A DNA stretch of 64,000 bases. Origin: Thermosediminibacteraceae bacterium. GTDB lineage: Bacteria > Bacillota > Thermosediminibacteria > Thermosediminibacterales > Thermosediminibacteraceae. The stretch is taken from contig JAKKUQ010000006.1 of NCBI GenBank assembly GCA_021890755.1, positions 1 through 64,000 on the forward strand, given 5' to 3'. The notes under the pieces are model-generated. The model worked only from the letters and a program-made list of their open reading frames with translations. It had not been told where the DNA came from and did not search any database. Shown here in pieces: positions 10,197 through 26,668 of the stretch (positions are counted from its first letter, which is position 1; every line of letters starts with the position of its first letter). The position numbers and the translations under genes are program-made.

Positions 10197-11366
10197 ATGA
10201 AATTCACCATGTACAGTGTTTTTACGAAGGCGTTATTTATGGATGCTATTATTACACTTTATTTGTTCGCACGTGGTTTGAACGTTACCCAAATAATGTT
10301 GTTGGAGACCTTTTCAGCTCTAACCATAACTTTCTTCGAGATTCCGGGAGGCGCTGTAGCGGATAAGTTTGGCAGAAAATACAGTTTGTTTTTTGGAGCA
10401 TTTTTGCAAGCTATTGCAGTCATATTTCTTATAATCGGTCTAAATTATCTATTCTTTGTTGCCGGGATAGTGATATTTTCGATCGGAGCTACTTTTATAT
10501 CGGGTGCGGATAATGCTTATTTGTATGACTTTTTAAATGAAAATAATATGAAAGATAAGTTTCAACAAATTGACGGCAGCATAAGGTCCTGGATTCTTTA
10601 TTCTACGGCGATTTTTTATCTGACAGCAGGTCTTTTATATACTAAAAGCATCTATTTTCCTTTTTATCTCACCCTTATATCCCTAATATTCGCATCATTG
10701 TTGGCGCTTAGCCTGACAAATATAAGTATAGATACGAAAAAGCCAGAAGGGAAATTGTCCTATTCTCAAATTATCAAAGAGAGCGGAAAATTTATATTTA
10801 AAAACACCGACTTATTATTCCTATTCCTCTTTTCTAGTGTGGTTCTATCTTTTATATATCTAGCCAGGGGCATCGAACAGACATATTTATATTTCAATAA
10901 AGTGCCGCCGCAATACTTCGGATTGCTGGTATGTATCTTCAATTTGATTGCAGGGTTCTTTTCCAGAAAAAGCAGGCAGATAACCGATTTATTTAAGAAT
11001 GCCCAGTTTTATATATCCATATCATTATTCCTGTTTCTAATATTGATGAGTCAAATTAAATCTTTGTATTTCGGATTGCCTTTGCTTTTAGCATTCCATG
11101 CAATTAGAGGTATATCTTCACCTTATCTCTTTAGACGCTTGAATGAGCACATTATTTCGGAAATACGTGCAACCATACTCTCTTTTCACAATTTGTTGAT
11201 GGGCCTTTTTATCGCTGCTTCAGCCCCTCTGCTGGGATACTTAACGGACAGACTAGGAATATATTATACATATCTCGTAATGTCGCTGAGTTTCTTATGC
11301 CTGATTGCCGTTATTGTTCTTTTAAAGGCGAAAAAATTAAAAATGTTGGTTTTTCGGGTGGATTGA
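10197..11366 (+). CDS. Major facilitator superfamily transporter
   Basis: This is a 12-segment MFS exporter of about 390 residues. The loop 2-3 signature is GGAVADKFGRKYS. Its frame extends upstream to a TTG at 10122, but those codons (NFSLLTLGH) are the shared tail of the ABC duplication, so the ATG at 10197 (MKFTMYSVF) is preferred; its ribosome binding site is poor. It may have been inserted behind ABC copy 2, because GGGTGGATTGA occurs at both 10115-10125 and 11356-11366. The substrate is unknown; drug efflux is plausible. Confidence 0.75.
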   Translation: MKFTMYSVFTKALFMDAIITLYLFARGLNVTQIMLLETFSALTITFFEIPGGAVADKFGRKYSLFFGAFLQAIAVIFLIIGLNYLFFVAGIVIFSIGATFISGADNAYLYDFLNENNMKDKFQQIDGSIRSWILYSTAIFYLTAGLLYTKSIYFPFYLTLISLIFASLLALSLTNISIDTKKPEGKLSYSQIIKESGKFIFKNTDLLFLFLFSSVVLSFIYLARGIEQTYLYFNKVPPQYFGLLVCIFNLIAGFFSRKSRQITDLFKNAQFYISISLFLFLILMSQIKSLYFGLPLLLAFHAIRGISSPYLFRRLNEHIISEIRATILSFHNLLMGLFIAASAPLLGYLTDRLGIYYTYLVMSLSFLCLIAVIVLLKAKKLKMLVFRVD

Positions 11367-11367
11367 A

Positions 11368-11475
11368 ATGGCGGTTAATATTAAAGACTCTTTAAAAAAG
11401 CTGATTAAGATTTCCATGGTTTTATTGATCTATACAATGGTCTTTATATTCTCTCTAAACGTGTTAGATTTTTAG
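11368..11475 (+). CDS. Small membrane-anchored ORF, possibly the signal segment of a broken phosphatase
   Basis: A 35-codon frame begins at the ATG two bases after the MFS stop. It starts MAVNIKDSLKKLIK and continues with one hydrophobic segment. After its TAG the same frame continues directly into alkaline-phosphatase-like sequence. It may be the export segment of a now-deleted phosphatase or an unrelated small membrane protein. No function is claimed. Confidence 0.35.
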   Translation: MAVNIKDSLKKLIKISMVLLIYTMVFIFSLNVLDF

Positions 11476-17589: not shown

Positions 17590-17607
17590 TTGTTAAAAAA
17601 TTAACAA
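17590..17607 (+). promoter_or_regulatory. Rex operator
   Basis: TTGTTAA-AAAA-TTAACAA has perfect 7-bp arms and matches the clostridial Rex consensus TTGTTAAnnnnTTAACAA. It lies 26 bases upstream of the best -35 box of rex, so autoregulation is likely, although it does not overlap that promoter. Confidence 0.85.
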
Positions 17608-17676: not shown

Positions 17677-18315
17677 TTGAGTTTGTTCAAAAAATTTAAA
17701 ATACCTGAAGCCACCATTGGAAGACTTACATCTTATTCGCGATTTTTGAAAGAAGCAGACGAAAAAGGGATAACAACCGTCTCATCCCAGCAAATAGCAA
17801 AAGCTACGGGTGTCACTCCTGCACAGGTCAGGAAAGACCTGGCATATTTTGGAGAATTTGGCACAAGAGGTGTTGGATATAATCCGAGAGAATTATATAA
17901 CTATATTATGAAGATACTCGGCCTGGACAGACGGTGGGCCGTGGTAATAGTTGGTGCGGGACGCCTTGGAGCCGCGCTTTCTATGTATAAAGGATTTGCA
18001 GAAAGAGGGTTTGATATTGTCTGTATTTTCGACGAAGACCCTGAAAAAATAGGAAAGAAAATTGGCGACATAGAGATACGACCGATGGAGGAACTGAGGG
18101 AAAAAGTAAAAGAATACTCTATTAAACTGGGGATAGTAGCAGTGCCGGCTTCTGCTGCTCAGGAAGTAGTTGACATTATGGTTGAAGCGGGCATAAGAGG
18201 TATTATCAATTTTGCACCGGTAAACGTTTCAGTTCCCGAAGGTGTGGTACTGAGGAGAGTTGATTTGGCGTCCCAGCTGGAGTATTTGACGTTTCATCTG
18301 GGTGAAACTAGATGA
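17677..18315 (+). CDS. rex: Redox-sensing transcriptional repressor Rex
   Basis: Rex represses fermentative and hydrogen genes when NADH is low and is released by NADH. The 212-residue protein has an N-terminal winged helix (VSSQQIAKATGVTPAQVRKDL, split by the family's DNA-contact residues) and a Rossmann domain with VVIVGAGRLGAAL near residue 88. TTG at 17677 is the start, after AAGGTGAGGAG. The next gene overlaps it by four bases. The operator at 17590 implies autoregulation, and the whole cluster through hydA is probably under Rex. Confidence 0.95.
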   Translation: MSLFKKFKIPEATIGRLTSYSRFLKEADEKGITTVSSQQIAKATGVTPAQVRKDLAYFGEFGTRGVGYNPRELYNYIMKILGLDRRWAVVIVGAGRLGAALSMYKGFAERGFDIVCIFDEDPEKIGKKIGDIEIRPMEELREKVKEYSIKLGIVAVPASAAQEVVDIMVEAGIRGIINFAPVNVSVPEGVVLRRVDLASQLEYLTFHLGETR

Positions 18316-19121
18316 AGCTTAAAAAGATAAAAGAAATTCTCCAAGCTGAGGTGTTGGTTGGAGAAGAGAAAGATTTAGAGGTTGATGTAACTAATGCTTG
18401 CGGAGCCGACCTAATCAGCGATATTTTGGCCGATACAAAGAAAAACGCGGTTTTGCTGACTGGCCTTACTCACAGGCAGATAATACAAACTGCTAGTATG
18501 TCTGAATTTGCGGCGATAGTTTTCGTTAGAGGTAAGTTCCCAGCTCAGGATGTAATAGAACTGGCTAGGGAAAATGGCCTTCCACTCCTTCGCACTGAAT
18601 ACCCCCTATATGAAAGTTGCGGACTCCTTTATGAAGCAGGGCTGAAAGGGAATGAAAGGGATAAAAAAAGAATCGAAAAGCGAAACGGAGAAGAGCAGAT
18701 AACTGGCGCTATGCGCCTTGTTTACGATGTGTATGGTGGTGACTTTGACAGAGCCGGAAAGGCTACAGAACAAGCCAAGAAAGTTTTAAAACAATTGGGT
18801 GTTAACCCTTCTTCTATGAGGAGAGCATCTATTGCTGCTTATGAGGCTGAGATGAATATAGTAATTCACGCCTATAAAGGAAAGCTGATTTTTAATATAA
18901 CCCCTTCATATATTGAAATCATAGCGGAAGATGAAGGCCCCGGCATAGAAGATGTGGAACTGGCAATGAAGGAGGGATTTTCAACGGCTCCCGAACGCGT
19001 GCGGGAATTGGGGTTTGGGGCTGGTATGGGATTGCCAAATATGAAAAAATTTTCAGACGTGTTTGAAATTAATTCTGTTGTTGGGAAAGGCACGAAAGTA
19101 AAAATGATAGTCAATTTATAG
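18312..19121 (+). CDS. DRTGG domain protein fused to an anti-sigma-type HATPase
   Basis: Residues 1-115 are a DRTGG-type domain (AVLLTGLTHRQIIQ, then LPLLRTEYPLYESCGLL), the same fold as the stand-alone protein at 20481. After a charged linker, residues 135-269 form an RsbT/SpoIIAB-like GHKL ATPase: N-box AYEAEMNIVIHAY, DEGPGIEDVELAM, then GFGAGMGLPNMKKFSD. No phospho-acceptor His domain is seen, so it could be a protein-serine kinase or an ATP-dependent partner switch. It overlaps rex by four bases. A role in signalling for the neighbouring sensory hydrogenase is inferred from position. Confidence 0.85.
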   Translation: MKLKKIKEILQAEVLVGEEKDLEVDVTNACGADLISDILADTKKNAVLLTGLTHRQIIQTASMSEFAAIVFVRGKFPAQDVIELARENGLPLLRTEYPLYESCGLLYEAGLKGNERDKKRIEKRNGEEQITGAMRLVYDVYGGDFDRAGKATEQAKKVLKQLGVNPSSMRRASIAAYEAEMNIVIHAYKGKLIFNITPSYIEIIAEDEGPGIEDVELAMKEGFSTAPERVRELGFGAGMGLPNMKKFSDVFEINSVVGKGTKVKMIVNL

Positions 19122-19157: not shown

Positions 19158-20465
19158 TTGAGTTTTTATCATTCGGTTACGCTCGACATAAAAAAGTGCA
19201 GAGGGTGTACCAACTGCATAAAAGGGTGTCCTACGGAAGCCATAAGGGTACGTGGCGGGAAGGCTTTTATCATGGAAGAAAAATGTATCGATTGCGGCGA
19301 ATGCATAAGAATATGCCCAAATCAAGCAAAATTCGCCGTGACCGATGGCCTTGAAAAACTAAAATCGTATAAGTTTACAGTAGCTTTGCCTGCCCCGAGC
19401 TTTTACGCTCAATTTAGAGAGGGGACATCCAGGGAAGTCGTCAACGCTGCTTTAAAAGCTTTGGGTTTTGACGAGGTCTATGAAGTTCCTTTGGCGGCGG
19501 AAGAGGTTACCGCCGCCATTAGAGAATATTTGAAGAGAAATCGCGATATAAGACCTTTGATTTCCTCATCGTGTCCCGCTGTAGTGCGCCTAATAAAAGT
19601 GAGGTTTCCAGGGCTCATTAAAAACATCGTGCCGGTAAAAGCGCCTGTGGAAATAGCTGCTAAAAGAGCAAAGGAAATAATAAGGAGCGTATATGGAATA
19701 ACATCCCACGATATAGGGGCGTTCTTTATTAGTCCCTGTCCTGCGAAAGTTACTTCTGTGAAACAACCACTAGGAACTTCAAGGTCCTACGTAGATGGAG
19801 TTCTTTCCATGAGCAAGACATACGCAGAAGTAATAAAAAACATAGGAAGCGGAGACTATAATTCGATTTTTAAAAAATCTTGCGGTGTAGGGATAGGGTG
19901 GGGATATTCCGGCGGAGAAAATGCAGCGATTGGTACCGGCAATCGCCTTTCCGTGGATGGGATACACGATTGCATAGAAGTTCTTGAAGAGATCGAATTG
20001 GGTAAGCTTTGCGACATTGATTATTTGGAACTTCAGGCGTGTAGGGGTGGATGTGTAGGTGGAGCGCTTACGGTGGAAAACCGGTTCATTGCGAGTGTCA
20101 GATTGAAAAAGTTGGCGGAAAGGCTGGGGATTAAGAGTAATGTCCATGAGACGTCTATAGAAAAGGATTTTAAAAAGGGATATTACTTTTTGGAGGAAGA
20201 AATAAAACCTACTCCGTCGAAGCTCGACGATGACATGGCAACAGCCATTAAAAAGTTAGAGATGCTGGAAAAGACACTAAAGGAGCTTCCAGGATTAGAC
20301 TGTGGCAGCTGTGGCTCCCCCAATTGTAGAGCATTAGCCGAGGACATAGTGCAGAGACGTGCTAATGAGACAGACTGCGTATTTAAGCTAAGAGAAAAAG
20401 TACGGCAGCTAGTGGCTGAAGTACTTGATCTTTCACAAAAACTGCCTCCTACTATGGAGGGGTAA
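19158..20465 (+). CDS. Sensory-type [FeFe] hydrogenase with C-terminal Fe-S domain
   Basis: This 435-residue protein has two [4Fe-4S] motifs (CRGCTNCIKGCP, CIDCGECIRICP), an H-cluster domain, and a C-terminal Fe-S (PF04060-like) segment CGSCGSPNC. The H-cluster motifs are altered: L1 reads SSSCP (catalytic enzymes have TSCCP), L2 SPCPAK, L3 ELQACRGGC. The cluster ligands are kept, but the Cys that normally relays protons is Ser. That pattern fits sensory or slow hydrogenases rather than turnover enzymes. The TTG at 19158 follows a GGTGA site. The neighbours (DRTGG, HATPase, PHP proteins) suggest that it reports H2 or redox state. Confidence 0.85.
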   Translation: MSFYHSVTLDIKKCRGCTNCIKGCPTEAIRVRGGKAFIMEEKCIDCGECIRICPNQAKFAVTDGLEKLKSYKFTVALPAPSFYAQFREGTSREVVNAALKALGFDEVYEVPLAAEEVTAAIREYLKRNRDIRPLISSSCPAVVRLIKVRFPGLIKNIVPVKAPVEIAAKRAKEIIRSVYGITSHDIGAFFISPCPAKVTSVKQPLGTSRSYVDGVLSMSKTYAEVIKNIGSGDYNSIFKKSCGVGIGWGYSGGENAAIGTGNRLSVDGIHDCIEVLEEIELGKLCDIDYLELQACRGGCVGGALTVENRFIASVRLKKLAERLGIKSNVHETSIEKDFKKGYYFLEEEIKPTPSKLDDDMATAIKKLEMLEKTLKELPGLDCGSCGSPNCRALAEDIVQRRANETDCVFKLREKVRQLVAEVLDLSQKLPPTMEG

Positions 20466-20480
20466 GAGGGGGTGATTAGC

Positions 20481-20831
20481 TTGACTTTAGATGATCTTCA
20501 AAGGGAATTATCGCTAAAGCTTGTGACAAAAGGAACGAACCTAGATAGGCCGGTTACAGGCTGTTATGCGTCAGACTTATTGAGCTGGGTTATGGGGCAT
20601 GCAGAAGAAAATCAGGTATGGATTACCATACAAAGTCATCCTAACATAGTAGCAGTGGCAGCACTCCTAGGGCTTGCGGGGATTATTGTTGCTGAGGGTG
20701 TTGAGATAGATGAAGATACCATAAAAAAAGCAGAAGAGGAAAATGTGCCTATATTTTCTTCCGAGAAACCTATTTATGAAATATGCGGTATACTGTATAA
20801 TACGCTTTCAAGGAGCTATAAAAAATGTTAA
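20481..20831 (+). CDS. Stand-alone DRTGG domain protein
   Basis: This is a single DRTGG-type domain of about 116 residues (LDDLQRELSLKLV, AALLGLAGIIVAEGVEID, NVPIFSSEKPIYEICGIL). It resembles the N-terminal domain of the protein at 18312. A GTG at 20472 is in frame, but GAGGGGG abuts it; the TTG at 20481 lies 9 bases farther and is better spaced. Its stop overlaps the start of the PHP gene. DRTGG domains occur with CBS and phosphotransacetylase modules and may bind nucleotides. The function here is not established. Confidence 0.8.
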   Translation: MTLDDLQRELSLKLVTKGTNLDRPVTGCYASDLLSWVMGHAEENQVWITIQSHPNIVAVAALLGLAGIIVAEGVEIDEDTIKKAEEENVPIFSSEKPIYEICGILYNTLSRSYKKC

Positions 20832-21574
20832 AAGAATTTGCCGCAGACCTACACATTCATACATGCCTTTCGCCTTGTGCGGACTCGGAAATGATACCCC
20901 CGAACATCCTTAACATGGCAAAACTCTTAGGAACGAAAATTATAGGTATTTCAGATCACAATTCTGCTAAAAATCTCCAGGCAATGATTGAAGCATCTAG
21001 AAACTATGAAATTTTGGTACTCCCAGGCATTGAGGTTCAGAGCAAAGAAGAGGTACATGTGCTATGTTTATTTGAAAGGTTGAAAGAGGCATTGGAGTTT
21101 CAAGATTTCATTTATAGTCATCTTCCGCAAAAGAAAAACTATCCCCAATACTTCGGCCATCAGTATGTTGTAGATGCACAAGGAAACGTTAAAGGTGAAG
21201 AAGAGAGACTACTTATTGCCTCAACTGACCTGTCGGTGGACGAGATATTAAAAAATGCCTATAAGCTCGGGGGGATTGTCATACCTGCTCATATAGACAG
21301 AAATACTTTCGGCATACTGGGACAATTAGGTTTCATACCTGAATACCTGAGGGTAGATGCTGTTGAGTTTTCTAAAAACATTTCCTTAAAGGAAGCAAGG
21401 GGAAAATTCCCCTTTATATTTGATAGATTTCCAGTAATCTTTTCTTCTGATGCACACTGTCTGAAAGATATGGTTTTTCAAAAGACCTATTTCCTTTTAA
21501 AAGAACCAACTTTTGAAGAAATAAAAAAGGCCCTCATTGGCATAGGAGGAAGGGGGGTTGTACTAAGGGAATAA
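20825..21574 (+). CDS. PHP domain phosphoesterase
   Basis: This metal-dependent PHP-family hydrolase has 249 residues. The N-terminal metal motif is DLHIHTCLSPCAD, then GISDHNSAKN, with HIDR near residue 159 and SSDAHCL near 203, which together give the histidine/aspartate ligand set. It overlaps the DRTGG gene by seven bases. A phosphatase reversing a signal made by the two HATPase proteins of this cluster would fit, but this is inferred from context. The substrate is unknown. Confidence 0.85.
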   Translation: MLKEFAADLHIHTCLSPCADSEMIPPNILNMAKLLGTKIIGISDHNSAKNLQAMIEASRNYEILVLPGIEVQSKEEVHVLCLFERLKEALEFQDFIYSHLPQKKNYPQYFGHQYVVDAQGNVKGEEERLLIASTDLSVDEILKNAYKLGGIVIPAHIDRNTFGILGQLGFIPEYLRVDAVEFSKNISLKEARGKFPFIFDRFPVIFSSDAHCLKDMVFQKTYFLLKEPTFEEIKKALIGIGGRGVVLRE

Positions 21575-21650
21575 CTGGGAATAACGGTATATATAAATGA
21601 CAATTGGAAGGTATAAACAATAACATTAATCACAGGAGGAGTTGGCCGTT

Positions 21651-22139
21651 ATGGGACTTGCGGTAAAAAAAGATCCGGGATTAGAAGAAAAACTTAAGAA
21701 AGTAGACGAAATGCTAGAAAAATATAAGGGAAAGAAAGGGGTACTGCTGCAGGTTTTGCAGGAGGCCCAAAGCATTGTAGGATACCTCCCTATTGAAGTG
21801 CAAAAAAGAGTGGCCGAAGCATTGAATGTTACATTGAGTGAAGTATATAGCACCGTTACCTTTTACTCATTTTTCAACCTGAAGCCCAAAGGGAAATATC
21901 AGATAAGGAGCTGCATAGGTACTGCCTGTTACGTAAAAGGGGCTGACAAGGTTTTAGCACGGCTGGAACAAGAATTAGGGATAAAAGTAGGAGATACTAC
22001 CGATGACCTTAAATTTTCCTTAGATGCGTGCAGATGCGTCGGCGCATGTGGGCTTGCTCCCGTGTTAATTATCAACGACGACGTTTACGGCAGGGTGACT
22101 CCGGACAAGGTGCCAGAGATCTTGAAAAATTATGAGTGA
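21651..22139 (+). CDS. hydC: Bifurcating hydrogenase subunit HydC (NuoE-like)
   Basis: This thioredoxin-fold [2Fe-2S] subunit of the NAD-dependent electron-bifurcating hydrogenase has 162 residues. The ligand pairs are CIGTAC and CRCVGAC with the usual wide spacing. The start is the ATG at 21651 after CAGGAGGAG; an in-frame TTG at 21642 is too close to that site. It precedes the HATPase, a second [2Fe-2S] protein and hydB-hydA. Together HydABC oxidise NADH and reduced ferredoxin to make H2, or run in reverse. Confidence 0.92.
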   Translation: MGLAVKKDPGLEEKLKKVDEMLEKYKGKKGVLLQVLQEAQSIVGYLPIEVQKRVAEALNVTLSEVYSTVTFYSFFNLKPKGKYQIRSCIGTACYVKGADKVLARLEQELGIKVGDTTDDLKFSLDACRCVGACGLAPVLIINDDVYGRVTPDKVPEILKNYE

Positions 22140-22693
22140 GGGTAATGAAGGAGTTATCTTTGCATGTTCTTGACATTGTGGAAAATTCCCTGAGGGCAGG
22201 TGCCACAGTTGTTGAAATTAGGATCGTGGAAGACTCTGCAGAGGATCTTTTGACAATTGAAATCAAGGATAATGGCAAGGGAATGGATGAAGAAACCGTA
22301 AAAAAAGCCTTAGACCCATTTTTTACTACCAGAACAGAAAGAAGGGTGGGCCTAGGTCTTCCCCTTCTTGCACAAGCCGCAAAAAGCACTGGAGGAGACC
22401 TTGTCATACATTCATACCCTGGGCAGGGAACTACTGTAAAGGCACACTTTGTAAAAAGTCACATTGACCTGCAGCCTTTAGGGGATATGGCTGAAACGGT
22501 GGCGGCCGTGGTTGCCCTTCACCCTGAGGTGGATTTTATATACAGCCATGTGAAGGAAAGTAGGGAATTTTGCTTTAATACGAAAGAAGTCAAGAAAAAA
22601 CTTCAGGAAGTGCCGATAAATGACCCTCTGGTTATAGATTGGATTCTTAAGTTTATAAAGGAAGGCTTAAAGGAGATAAGCGGAGGTGCTTAA
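22136..22693 (+). CDS. GHKL-type ATP-binding protein in the hydrogenase operon
   Basis: This 185-residue protein has the Bergerat ATP fold of histidine kinases and anti-sigma factors: N-box DIVENSLRAGAT, DNGKGMDEE, GLGLPLLAQAAKSTGG, then GQGTTV. It lacks a dimerisation/His phospho-acceptor domain. Its C-terminal 70 residues are unassigned. The GTG at 22136 overlaps the hydC stop (GTGA); an ATG at 22145 is the alternative. Homologues sit in the same place in bifurcating hydrogenase operons of related anaerobes. Its role is unproven. Confidence 0.82.
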   Translation: MRVMKELSLHVLDIVENSLRAGATVVEIRIVEDSAEDLLTIEIKDNGKGMDEETVKKALDPFFTTRTERRVGLGLPLLAQAAKSTGGDLVIHSYPGQGTTVKAHFVKSHIDLQPLGDMAETVAAVVALHPEVDFIYSHVKESREFCFNTKEVKKKLQEVPINDPLVIDWILKFIKEGLKEISGGA

Positions 22694-22696
22694 GGT

Positions 22697-23071
22697 ATGG
22701 GAGTCATAAAATCTGTAGAAGAGCTTGAAAAAATTCGCGACCAGGCGCGCGAATTAATAAACCTAAGGAAAGACAATGAAAACAAAACGCGAATTGTGGT
22801 CGGAATGGGGACTTGTGGTATATCAGCGGGAGCCCGCCAGGTCTTGATGGCAATCCTTGATGAGCTGAAAAAGAGAAATTTAACCAACGTGATAGTTACC
22901 GAAACCGGCTGTATTGGCATGTGCAGGTTCGAACCTTTAGTAGACGTCATAAAGCCAAATCAGCCTAAAGTAACTTATGTTAATGTGAATCCGGAAAAGG
23001 CAAGGCAGATTGTGGCGCGGCACATAGTGAACAATCAGGTGATCGACGAATGGGTAATACCGAATGTATAA
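22697..23071 (+). CDS. Thioredoxin-like [2Fe-2S] ferredoxin
   Basis: This 124-residue protein has a thioredoxin-type ferredoxin fold, with GMGTCGISAGA near residue 36 and ETGCIGMCRFEP near residue 76 providing the four cysteines (C-x10-type and CIGMC sites). It resembles the N-terminal domain of the HydB protein encoded next and may serve as an extra electron carrier or accessory subunit of the complex. Spacing to hydB is 29 bases. Confidence 0.85.
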   Translation: MGVIKSVEELEKIRDQARELINLRKDNENKTRIVVGMGTCGISAGARQVLMAILDELKKRNLTNVIVTETGCIGMCRFEPLVDVIKPNQPKVTYVNVNPEKARQIVARHIVNNQVIDEWVIPNV

Positions 23072-23100
23072 TATTTTAACATTCATTCGGGGGGATGGAT

Positions 23101-24894
23101 ATGGAGTTTTATAGGGCGCATATACTTGTATGCAGGGGGACTGGCTGCACGGCTTCCGGAAGCGAACAGGTTTTTGAAGCTTTTGAGAAGGAGATAGAAA
23201 AACAAGGGCTTTCTAAAGAGGTAAAAGTCCTGTTGACCGGGTGCCTCGGTCTTTGCGAACTAGGACCAAACATTATTATTTACCCCGAGGGTACCTATTA
23301 TTGTAAGGTTAAAGCAGAAGATGTGCCGGAGATCGTAGAAGAACACCTAGTCAAGGGCCGGATTGTAGAAAGGCTCCTATACAAAGAACGCACTACAGAA
23401 GAGAGGATGAGGGCTCTTACGGACATTAATTTCTATAAAAGGCAAAAAAGGATTGCCCTCAGAAACTGCGGCCTTATTAATCCCGAAGTAATAGAAGAAT
23501 ATATAGCAAACGACGGATACCGGGCCCTGGCAAAAGTTTTGACTGAGATGACTCCCCAGCAGGTAATCGATGAGATAACCAAATCTGGATTGAGGGGTCG
23601 TGGGGGCGGAGGTTTCCCCACAGGAAGAAAATGGCAGTTTGCTAAAGATGCACCCGGCGACATAAAATATGTGGTATGTAACGGTGACGAAGGAGATCCC
23701 GGCGCTTTCATGGACAGAAGCATTCTTGAAGGTGACCCTCATACCGTGCTGGAAGCAATGGCCATAGCCGGGTACGCAATTGGCGCGAAGGAAGGATATA
23801 TTTACGTTAGAGCTGAATATCCACTGGCGGTAAAGAGATTAGAGATAGCTATAGAGCAAGCAAGGGAAAGAGGTCTTCTTGGTAAAAATATCCTCGGCAC
23901 TGGCTTTGATTTTGATATTTTCCTGCGCCTTGGGTCAGGTGCATTCGTGTGTGGAGAGGAAACGGCTTTGCTCGCATCGATCGAGGGTCGAAGAGGTGAA
24001 CCAAGGCCTAGGCCTCCTTTCCCGGCAGTAGCGGGATTGTGGGGTAAGCCCACTCTAATAAACAATGTGGAGACCTTTGCCAACATTCCGCCCATCATAT
24101 TAAATGGTGCCGAATGGTTTGCTAGCATAGGAACCGAAAGAAGTAAAGGTACAAAAGTGTTTGCTATCGGAGGTAAAATAAACAACACTGGACTTGTGGA
24201 GATTCCTATGGGGACCACGCTAAGGGAAGTAATATACGAGATCGGCGGCGGCATTCCCAACGGGAAGCAGTTTAAAGCGGTCCAAACCGGTGGACCTTCT
24301 GGTGGGTGCATACCCGCATCGCTGCTGGATATGCCTATAGAGTTCGATACGTTGACACAGGCCGGTTCAATGATGGGTTCCGGCGGAATGATTGTCATGG
24401 ATGAAGATACATGTATGGTCGATATAGCTAAGTTCTTCCTCACTTTCACACAAGACGAGTCCTGCGGAAAGTGTCCGCCCTGCCGGATAGGTACAAAGAG
24501 GATGCTGGAGATCCTAGAAAGGATAACCAATGGTGAAGGCCGTGAGGGAGACATCGAGCTTTTAGAAACCTTAGCTAAAAGTATAAAAGCTTCTGCTCTA
24601 TGTGGGTTGGGGCAGACTGCACCGAACCCGGTACTTTCCACACTCCGCTATTTCAGGGATGAATACGAAGCTCATATCAAGGAAAAGAGATGCCCTGCAG
24701 GCGCGTGCAAAGCATTGATAACTTACGAAATCATTGCGGATAAGTGCAAGGGCTGCGGATTGTGCGTAAAGGTATGCCCTGTGTCAGCGATTACCGGTGA
24801 AAGAAGACAGCCGCACGCTATCAACAAGGAGAAATGCCTTAAGTGCAACAGCTGTTTTGAAAGGTGCCCGTTTGGTGCTATAGTGAAGAAATAA
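23101..24894 (+). CDS. hydB: Bifurcating hydrogenase subunit HydB (NuoF-like)
   Basis: HydB is the flavoprotein of the bifurcating complex, where NADH is oxidised. Domains in order: a thioredoxin-like [2Fe-2S] domain (CRGTGC, CLGLCE), the FMN/NADH-binding core ([16 protein letters not shown] near residue 165), the [4Fe-4S] site [13 protein letters not shown] near residue 455, and a C-terminal ferredoxin domain ([24 protein letters not shown]). Two ATGs occur at 23095 and 23101; GGGGGG abuts the first, so 23101 is preferred. It is 22 bases from hydA. Confidence 0.95.
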
Positions 24895-24916
24895 GGGGTA
24901 AAAGGGGAGGATAAAC

Positions 24917-26668
24917 ATGGAAATGGTTACTTTGACTATAGACGGCGAAAAAGTTCAGGTCCCAAAAGGCACCACCATACTTGAGGCCGCCCGCAAGCTA
25001 GGTAAAAAGATTCCCACCCTCTGTTTTCTGAAGGGGATAAATGAAATCGGGGCGTGCAGGATGTGTGTGGTAGAAGTAAAGGGTGCCAGAGCACTTCAGG
25101 CTTCATGCGTTTATCCAGTATCGGAGGGAATGGAGGTATTCACCAATACCCCGGCGGTGAGGGAAGCAAGGAAAGTAACACTAGAACTTTTGCTATCCGA
25201 TCATAACATGGAATGCCCCACCTGCGTTAGAAACCTCAACTGCGAGCTTCAGAAGTTAGCCGAGGAACTGGGCATAAGGTCGATCCGCTTTACAGGTGAA
25301 AAACACAAGGCTATATACGATGATTTTTCACCATCTATAGTTAGGGATACTTCAAAATGCATCCTTTGCCGCCGCTGCGTGAGCACCTGCCACAATGTAC
25401 AGGGTGTGGGTGTAATTTCGCCCAACCACCGGGGATTTGAGACTACGATAGCTCCGGTCTATGACATGAGTTTGGCTGAAGTGGCATGCGTCAACTGCGG
25501 ACAGTGCATTTTGGCATGCCCGGTGGGAGCCTTAAAGGAAAAGGACGATACGGACAAAGTTTGGCAAGCACTGCAAGACCCGGAAAAACACGTAATCGTC
25601 CAGATTGCGCCGGCAGTCAGAGTATCCCTTGGAGAAGAGTTCGGGTTGGAAAGAGGCGCTATCGTAACTAAAAAAATTCCAGCAGCCCTGAGGAGATTGG
25701 GGTTTGACAGAGTATTCGACACCGATTTTGGAGCAGATCTTACCATAATGGAGGAAGGGCACGAGTTCATAGAAAGGCTTCAGAACGGTGGAAAGCTTCC
25801 GCTAATTACTTCCTGCAGCCCGGGTTGGATAAAGTTCTGTGAACACTACTATCCTGAATTTTTAGAGAACCTTTCCACATGCAAATCGCCGCAGCAGATG
25901 TTTGGCGCTGTTGCAAAAACTTATTACGCTCAAAAAATGGGAATAGATCCTTCAAAGATTTTTGTAGTATCAATCATGCCATGCACCGCCAAGAAGTTCG
26001 AATGCCAGCGGCCCGAAATGAGATCCAGCGGATACCAGGATGTGGATGTAGTGCTTACTACCCGGGAAATATCGAGGATGTTGAAGGAAGCGGGAATAAA
26101 CCTGGCGAGCCTACCCGATGAGGAATTCGACGATCCGTTAGGAATTTCGACTGGTGCTGGCGCTATTTTCGGTGCAACGGGTGGCGTTATGGAGGCAGCT
26201 TTGCGAACTGTCTACGAAGTATTGACTGGTCAAGAGCTTAAAAATTTAGATTTTACTGATGTCCGCGGCGTCGAAGGCATAAAAGAAGCAACGGTTGAAA
26301 TAAACGGCATGAAGATCAATGTAGCAGTTGCACACGGACTTGCGAATGCAAGGAAGCTTTTAGACAGAGTAAAAAATAAAGAAGCGACCTACCACTTTAT
26401 AGAGATAATGGGTTGTCCAGGCGGCTGCGTGGGTGGCGGCGGACAGCCTATCCTAAGCGCCGAAGAACGGTGGGAGCTGGATTACCGTAAGGTGCGCGGA
26501 GAGGCCATTTACGAAGTTGACCGCAATATGCCCTTGAGGAAATCCCATGAAAACCCGGCTGTGCAGCAGCTTTACAAAGAATTTTTAGGTAAACCTTTAA
26601 GCGAAAAATCTCATGAACTTTTGCACACTCATTATACTCCACGACCAAAGTATCCCGAAGCTGAATAA
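24917..26668 (+). CDS. hydA: Bifurcating [FeFe] hydrogenase catalytic subunit HydA
   Basis: This 583-residue catalytic subunit has a [2Fe-2S] domain (CFLKGINEIGACRMC), a His-Cys cluster site (HNMECPTC), two [4Fe-4S] sites (CILCRRC, CVNCGQCILACP), the H-cluster domain and a C-terminal small-subunit domain. H-cluster motifs are L1 TSCSPGW near residue 297, L2 IMPCTAKKFE and L3 EIMGCPGGCVGG. In L1 the residue before Pro is Ser where many enzymes have Cys. AGGGGAGG precedes the ATG. A strong terminator follows, closing the rex-hyd operon. Confidence 0.95.
   Translation: MEMVTLTIDGEKVQVPKGTTILEAARKLGKKIPTLCFLKGINEIGACRMCVVEVKGARALQASCVYPVSEGMEVFTNTPAVREARKVTLELLLSDHNMECPTCVRNLNCELQKLAEELGIRSIRFTGEKHKAIYDDFSPSIVRDTSKCILCRRCVSTCHNVQGVGVISPNHRGFETTIAPVYDMSLAEVACVNCGQCILACPVGALKEKDDTDKVWQALQDPEKHVIVQIAPAVRVSLGEEFGLERGAIVTKKIPAALRRLGFDRVFDTDFGADLTIMEEGHEFIERLQNGGKLPLITSCSPGWIKFCEHYYPEFLENLSTCKSPQQMFGAVAKTYYAQKMGIDPSKIFVVSIMPCTAKKFECQRPEMRSSGYQDVDVVLTTREISRMLKEAGINLASLPDEEFDDPLGISTGAGAIFGATGGVMEAALRTVYEVLTGQELKNLDFTDVRGVEGIKEATVEINGMKINVAVAHGLANARKLLDRVKNKEATYHFIEIMGCPGGCVGGGGQPILSAEERWELDYRKVRGEAIYEVDRNMPLRKSHENPAVQQLYKEFLGKPLSEKSHELLHTHYTPRPKYPEAE

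Follow-up and report, generated by a model that had tools for sequence, protein, structure and literature searches.

A group D putative sensory [FeFe] hydrogenase and its linkage to a DRTGG/SpoIIAB-like kinase gene in a Thermosediminibacteraceae bacterium

The stretch of DNA analyzed here (the window, 64,000 nucleotides from a Thermosediminibacteraceae bacterium) encodes, in the same gene run as a working hydrogenase, a second [FeFe] hydrogenase, HydS, which raises the question of what this protein does there and which partner, if any, it signals to. Signaling by group D [FeFe] hydrogenases is an acknowledged question, and finding the interaction partners of TamHydS from Thermoanaerobacter mathranii has been called critical (PMC13104023, 2026). 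The enzyme class is known; what our analysis adds is the linkage to a partner, as it narrows the candidates to one kinase encoded upstream of hydS in every sampled HydS genome, plus a PHP phosphoesterase. Our search of the open-licence PubMed Central literature turned up neither counts of the kinase linkage nor descriptions of the DRTGG/PHP cassette, of the CBS variants, or of the co-decay presented below, though reports may exist elsewhere.

HydS and its active site

The hydS gene starts with a TTG codon, about 8 nt downstream of a GGTGA sequence. A sequencing artifact was ruled out as the origin of this open reading frame, which is intact in close relatives at 79-81% identity. The following features were assigned to it:

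19158-20465, + strand: HydS, group D (M2e) [FeFe] hydrogenase, 435 amino acids
19179-19328, + strand: N-terminal 2x[4Fe-4S] ferredoxin-like domain, residues 8-57 (Pfam Fer4_10, 8-54)
19374-20066, + strand: H domain, Fe_hyd_lg_C PF02906 (Pfam residues 73-303, E 2.8e-31)
19563-19577, + strand: L1 motif SSSCP, residues S136-S137-S138-C139-P140 (Ser138 codon at 19569-19571)
19908-20030, + strand: alternative proton path S251, E254, D267, E291 (TamHydS S249, E252, D265, E289)
20286-20384, + strand: C-terminal [4Fe-4S] domain CGSCGSPNC-x16-C (Pfam PF04060, residues 377-409, E 1.6e-12)

The AlphaFold2 model of HydS (pLDDT 92.4, pTM 0.88) has [FeFe] hydrogenases as its top structural matches. In an alignment with 81 relatives, the eight cysteines of the N-terminal domain are invariant. 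The C-terminal motif is an exact Cx2Cx4Cx16C (C382, C385, C390, and C407) flanked by D381 and D406, and its cysteines are kept in all 79 relatives covering this region. The Pfam search of the window proteins returned no PAS domain in HydS, and together with the PF04060 match and the residue positions this bears out the preliminary description, in which a C-terminal CGSCGSPNC cluster domain had been noted in place of a PAS domain. The same description had read SSSCP where catalytic enzymes carry TSCCP, with all L1-L3 ligand cysteines present, and both statements held. Ser138 occupies the position of the proton-relay cysteine, whereas Cys139 is the retained cluster ligand; among the 81 relatives, position 138 holds Ala 63 times and Ser 18 times but never Cys, and in this alignment the serine of the window protein represents the minority form of a general substitution of the relay cysteine. 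The H-cluster ligands Cys139 (L1), Cys194 (L2, SPCPAK), and Cys295/Cys299 (L3) are invariant wherever the relatives cover them.

Loss of the relay cysteine does not imply loss of proton transfer, as the Glu-Glu-Ser-Asp route described as an alternative in TamHydS (E252-E289-S249-D265; PMC10407848) is conserved: E254 is found in 81/81, E291 in 80/80, and D267 in 79/80 relatives. The M2e type is defined by absence of the relay residue Cys299 (CpI numbering) and replacement of M353 by Ser or Thr (PMC8163306), and the window HydS carries Ser138 and Ser192 at these two positions. For TamHydS, conserved residues surrounding the clusters at both termini have been listed (PMC13104023), and 16 of 17 published TamHydS positions are identical in the window protein at constant offsets of 0, +2, and +3, the exception being K42 for R42.

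In a tree of 89 H domains, the groups A, B, C, and D each formed one side of a branch, with support values of 100, 95, 98, and 100, respectively (SH-aLRT for D, 100). HydS fell into the D clade beside proteins of Tepidanaerobacteraceae and Thermosediminibacter, apart from A, B, and C. Judged by its sequence, HydS is thus a member of group D (M2e), a class already termed "putative sensory," the match to TamHydS having been made through published residue numbers and clade rather than by direct alignment. The phylogeny against groups A to D, which the preliminary description had proposed as a check, gave no grouping with catalytic enzymes. Its assignment to a sensory-type class therefore stood, but not any novelty of that class, since group D had been described and biochemically characterized earlier (PMC8163306, PMC10407848, PMC13104023). 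Membership in group C was rejected on account of the missing PAS domain and the separate clade, and membership in the catalytic groups A and B on account of tree position and the SSSCP motif. Some group C members retain a cysteine at the relay position (SACCP, TSCCP, or TTCCP in L112, L113, L111, L052, and L054); loss of the relay cysteine is not universal in group C, unlike in group D.

Gene neighborhood of hydS and the adjacent kinase

The window gene order is rex, DRTGG-HATPase, HydS, DRTGG, PHP, NuoE, HATPase, Fdx, NuoF, HydA (group A6), and then Rnf. Pfam searches agreed with the DRTGG, HATPase, and PHP surroundings noted earlier, placing a DRTGG and HATPase fusion 5' of HydS and DRTGG and PHP proteins 3' of it, followed by HydABC-type genes:

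17590-17607, + strand: predicted Rex operator TTGTTAAAAAATTAACAA, preceding rex and the cassette
17677-18315, + strand: rex, which opens the gene run in this lineage and encodes an NADH/NAD+-responsive repressor (NCBIfam NF003993, 312 bits, cut-off 217)
18312-19121, + strand: fusion of DRTGG and a serine-kinase ATPase domain resembling SpoIIAB/RsbW (Pfam DRTGG, HATPase_c_2)
20472-20831, + strand: stand-alone second DRTGG protein (Pfam DRTGG, E 3.9e-6)
20825-21574, + strand: PHP-family metal-dependent phosphoesterase (Pfam PHP)
21642-26668, + strand: working hydrogenase unit of NuoE-like, HATPase (22136-22693), 2Fe-2S ferredoxin-like, NuoF-like, and HydA proteins
24917-26668, + strand: HydA, NADH-dependent group A6 (NCBIfam NF040763, 960 bits, cut-off 765)

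Sequence and fold, namely the HATPase_c_2 domain and its N-box, mark the upstream neighbor as a putative SpoIIAB/RsbW-type serine kinase. Its sequence matches in the PDB were solely to the anti-sigma F factor SpoIIAB, and the HATPase part of its AlphaFold2 model fits SpoIIAB (TM 0.84 of target) and RsbW; the DRTGG part fits 3l31, the CBS-DRTGG region of a Clostridium perfringens pyrophosphatase. The N-box residues E178/N182 and the motifs DxGxGI and GFGAGMGLPN are conserved in the kinase alignment, and the score of the protein lies below the NCBIfam cut-off for SpoIIAB (61 versus 135 bits). A search of the genome for a cognate STAS antagonist returned none besides SpoIIAA, a single STAS protein encoded before the genome's own SpoIIAB-like gene at C158. 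Since the sole STAS protein sits with its own SpoIIAB-like gene, the target of the kinase is probably not a dedicated STAS protein, and a classical partner switch has no candidate antagonist except SpoIIAA. In the PHP protein, residues H10, H12, H45, E70, H78, H156, D209, and H211 are invariant or nearly so among 67 relatives, which indicates an intact metal site.

How tightly the kinase is tied to HydS was counted in an even sample of 150 genomes from the phylum, with thresholds of E <= 1e-50 for HydS and E <= 1e-34 for the kinase, for which the next matches followed at 1e-15. HydS was present in 50 and the kinase in 54 of these genomes, and in all 50 HydS genomes the kinase gene lies directly upstream on the same strand, at a gap of 18-440 nt (median, 46). 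Fisher's test on this co-occurrence gave 1.6e-35, a value that ignores shared ancestry. PHP accompanies HydS in 48 of the 50 genomes, and a HydA homolog occurs in 97 of the 150, including 46 of those with HydS. This near-obligate linkage supports the earlier suggestion that a signaling partner is encoded in the same operon, and we propose the DRTGG/HATPase kinase as the obvious candidate partner of HydS on these genomic grounds. Co-regulation without contact can explain the linkage as well, and two loci with HydS but without the kinase (L006 and L068) count against this proposal.

Comparison with 80 HydS loci from other genomes revealed the recurrent order DRTGG, kinase, HydS, DRTGG, PHP. The kinase lies 5' of HydS in 72 of the 75 loci with visible upstream sequence (73 after inspection of L061), and DRTGG and PHP follow 3' in 66/71 and 64/71 loci, respectively. 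Most loci encode DRTGG and kinase separately, and the window lineage has them fused in a single gene. The DRTGG-kinase-HydS-DRTGG-PHP set is divergent from the NuoE-HATPase-Fdx-NuoF-HydA set in at least a dozen loci (L032, L036, L050, L057, L063, L072, and L073, for example), and the two are therefore separable units, with the second HATPase belonging to HydABC. That protein (22136-22693) has an ATPase domain of the histidine kinase type, lacks a phospho-acceptor domain, and stays with NuoE, Fdx, and NuoF. A general tie between the cassette and Rnf was rejected, RnfC and RnfD lying within 9 kb in just 5 of the 44 loci with full flanks; three cassettes (L038, L040, and L105) adjoin Rnf rather than HydABC.

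The predicted Rex operator at 17590-17607 is the only match to the consensus TTGTTAANNNNTTAACAA with 0 mismatches in the window. The site recurs 5' of rex in L001-L005, L008 (1 mismatch), and G079. When up to 2 mismatches were allowed, 14 of 74 cassettes had a site within 300 nt upstream versus 0.53 expected, with close relatives supplying several of the 14. Rex adjoins the cassette in some lineages only. Rex sites have also been predicted 5' of hfsABCD and ech in T. saccharolyticum (PMC5886521). From the operator sequence, expression of the cassette in the window lineage is probably gated by Rex, i.e., by NADH/NAD+. Promoter-like matches were at chance level in our scan (19 versus 17.9 expected); terminator-like matches numbered 18 versus 10.2 expected, those on the + strand falling inside genes.

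Natural variants and a possible role for HydS

A complete, single-contig genome of the same family (G037) carries a decayed HydS cassette (L165, G037:C1:682000-696500) beside an intact HydABC set. Only joined fragments are left of kinase and HydS, and PHP carries a frameshift, while rex, the two DRTGG regions, and the complete HydABC set (73-93% identity) remain intact. Kinase and HydS may have been lost by a single deletion, with the damage to PHP being separate.

In a second type of variant, the kinase is fused to a CBS pair. Such fusions were detected at 12 loci in 10 of 399 genomes, several of them confirmed by Pfam; 8 of the 12 loci are without HydS and 4 have it, whereas HydS accompanies kinases without CBS in 49 of 51 genomes. 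The association of CBS fusion with HydS absence gave a Fisher value of 5e-6 on mixed samples, ignoring shared ancestry. CBS-DRTGG units of pyrophosphatases sense AMP and Ap4A (PMC10742508), and this distribution is compatible with a role of HydS as one input, which a nucleotide sensor may supplement or replace. A clean one-for-one swap of HydS and CBS was suggested by three loci and weakened by the four carrying both.

The orphan HydS proteins of L006 and L068 sit among MinD/CooC-like ATPases. At L006:8989-10311, HydS has no kinase, with a Fur-like gene 5' and MinD/CooC-like iron-sulfur ATPases 3', which suggests a second genomic context for group D.

We consider it probable, with some reserve, that HydS is a sensor and not a bulk catalyst, and that it provides the H2/ferredoxin input of the adjacent DRTGG/SpoIIAB-like serine-kinase switch over fermentative electron flow. 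H2, or reduced ferredoxin via the N-terminal clusters, would set the redox state of the H-cluster. In TamHydS, H2 changes the secondary structure and leaves the C-terminal cluster unreduced (PMC13104023); any signal passing through the C-terminal cluster must therefore be conformational. Such a change might be relayed through the C-terminal [4Fe-4S] region to the serine kinase, in a contact that we infer, and the kinase, if active, would have its protein substrate in the H2/ferredoxin/NADH node, possibly HydABC or its regulators. The PHP phosphoesterase may reverse this phosphorylation, and Rex would add NADH control of cassette expression. The direction of the response and the roles of the PHP and DRTGG proteins we likewise infer. 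More tentatively, and leaning toward doubt, we suggest that DRTGG, kinase, HydS, DRTGG, and PHP might constitute an undescribed serine-kinase module, its input being an [FeFe] hydrogenase, a nucleotide-sensing CBS pair, or both. If this is true, H2/ferredoxin state and energy charge would feed one switch over HydABC/Rnf electron flow.

We regard it as unlikely that HydS instead contributes slow auxiliary catalysis, or serves HydABC as an additional electron-carrying subunit, without any signaling function. All H-cluster ligands and the alternative proton path are intact, H2 turnover by TamHydS runs in both directions (PMC8163306), and NuoF and HydA are encoded near 39 and 32, respectively, of the 44 full-flank cassettes. 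However, the published turnover is low (PMC8163306), HydA homologs reach 97 of the 150 genomes versus 50 for HydS, the cassette can be divergent from HydABC, and its constant neighbor is the kinase and not HydA; moreover, HydABC is intact in G037 despite the decay of HydS. Even less probable is that HydS acts as a redox-dependent kinase subunit reading the redox state of ferredoxin, with H2 itself being irrelevant. The invariant N-terminal 2x[4Fe-4S] domain and the cassettes beside Rnf instead of HydABC would suit this role, but there would then be no need for the H-cluster ligands and the group D proton path to be invariant. Least credible is a sensor whose output is Rex or the second HATPase and not the DRTGG kinase: Rex and its operator precede the operon in the window lineage and this HATPase is part of the same gene run, but Rex lies beside the cassette in some lineages only, and the HATPase stays with NuoE, Fdx, and NuoF in divergent loci and is intact in G037 without HydS. 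For HydS as the putative input of the adjacent kinase, natural variants (fused, CBS-bearing, divergent, and decayed) are available for direct test.

Relation to known hydrogenases and kinases

TamHydS and the window HydS share domain order, the Cx2Cx4Cx16C motif, the absence of PAS and of the relay cysteine, a hydroxyl residue in place of M353, the Glu-Glu-Ser-Asp path, a HATPase neighbor, and a bifurcating HydABC downstream. The HATPase neighbor had already been noted in T. mathranii (PMC8163306) and Thermoanaerobacter (PMC3608648). The window enzyme differs in the serine at the relay position and in K42, and its locus in the fusion of DRTGG and HATPase in one protein and in a gene run that begins with rex.

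The presumed kinase resembles SpoIIAB/RsbW, its nearest solved structures by sequence and fold, in its HATPase_c_2 domain and in the catalytic Glu and Asn of the N-box. Unlike these proteins, it is fused to or paired with DRTGG, has no cognate STAS gene nearby, and scores below the NCBIfam cut-off.

Group C hydrogenases (TmHydS, Ruminococcus albus HydS, and Thermoanaerobacterium HfsB; PMC10055695, PMC11837493, PMC5707799) have in common with HydS the 2x[4Fe-4S] domain, the H domain, a C-terminal FeS domain, an altered relay cysteine, and linkage to Ser/Thr signaling proteins, but they contain a PAS domain and form a separate clade. Deletion of hfsB alters fermentation products and raises ethanol yield in thermophiles (PMC5707799), and an answer for group D could thus bear on fermentation control. 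The window genome also encodes a group C PAS-type sensory hydrogenase (L1 TTACP), whose neighbors are a serine phosphatase of the SpoIIE type and a group A HydA (G000:C64; L157:11354-13111, 10216-11394). One of its sensory hydrogenases is thus encoded beside a phosphatase (group C) and the other beside a kinase (group D). Of 81 genomes, 13 have both group C (PAS) and group D enzymes, versus about 6 expected.

Further relatives combine an H domain and an FeS domain with a sigma-54 activator AAA domain and a helix-turn-helix (L068:13925-16582, also with PAS; and, lacking PAS, L127:484-2730; L129:508-2709; L131:1498-3699; L133:499-2697), and are apparently one-component H2/redox-responsive transcription activators. 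Others join H domain, FeS, PAS, HisKA, and HATPase in a single chain, a hydrogenase-histidine kinase fusion (L130:344-2875, L132:1498-4035). In these group C-type relatives, the outputs follow directly behind the same FeS domain at which the group D chain ends, with the kinase gene next door. By analogy, this supports, but does not prove, that the output of group D is provided in trans.
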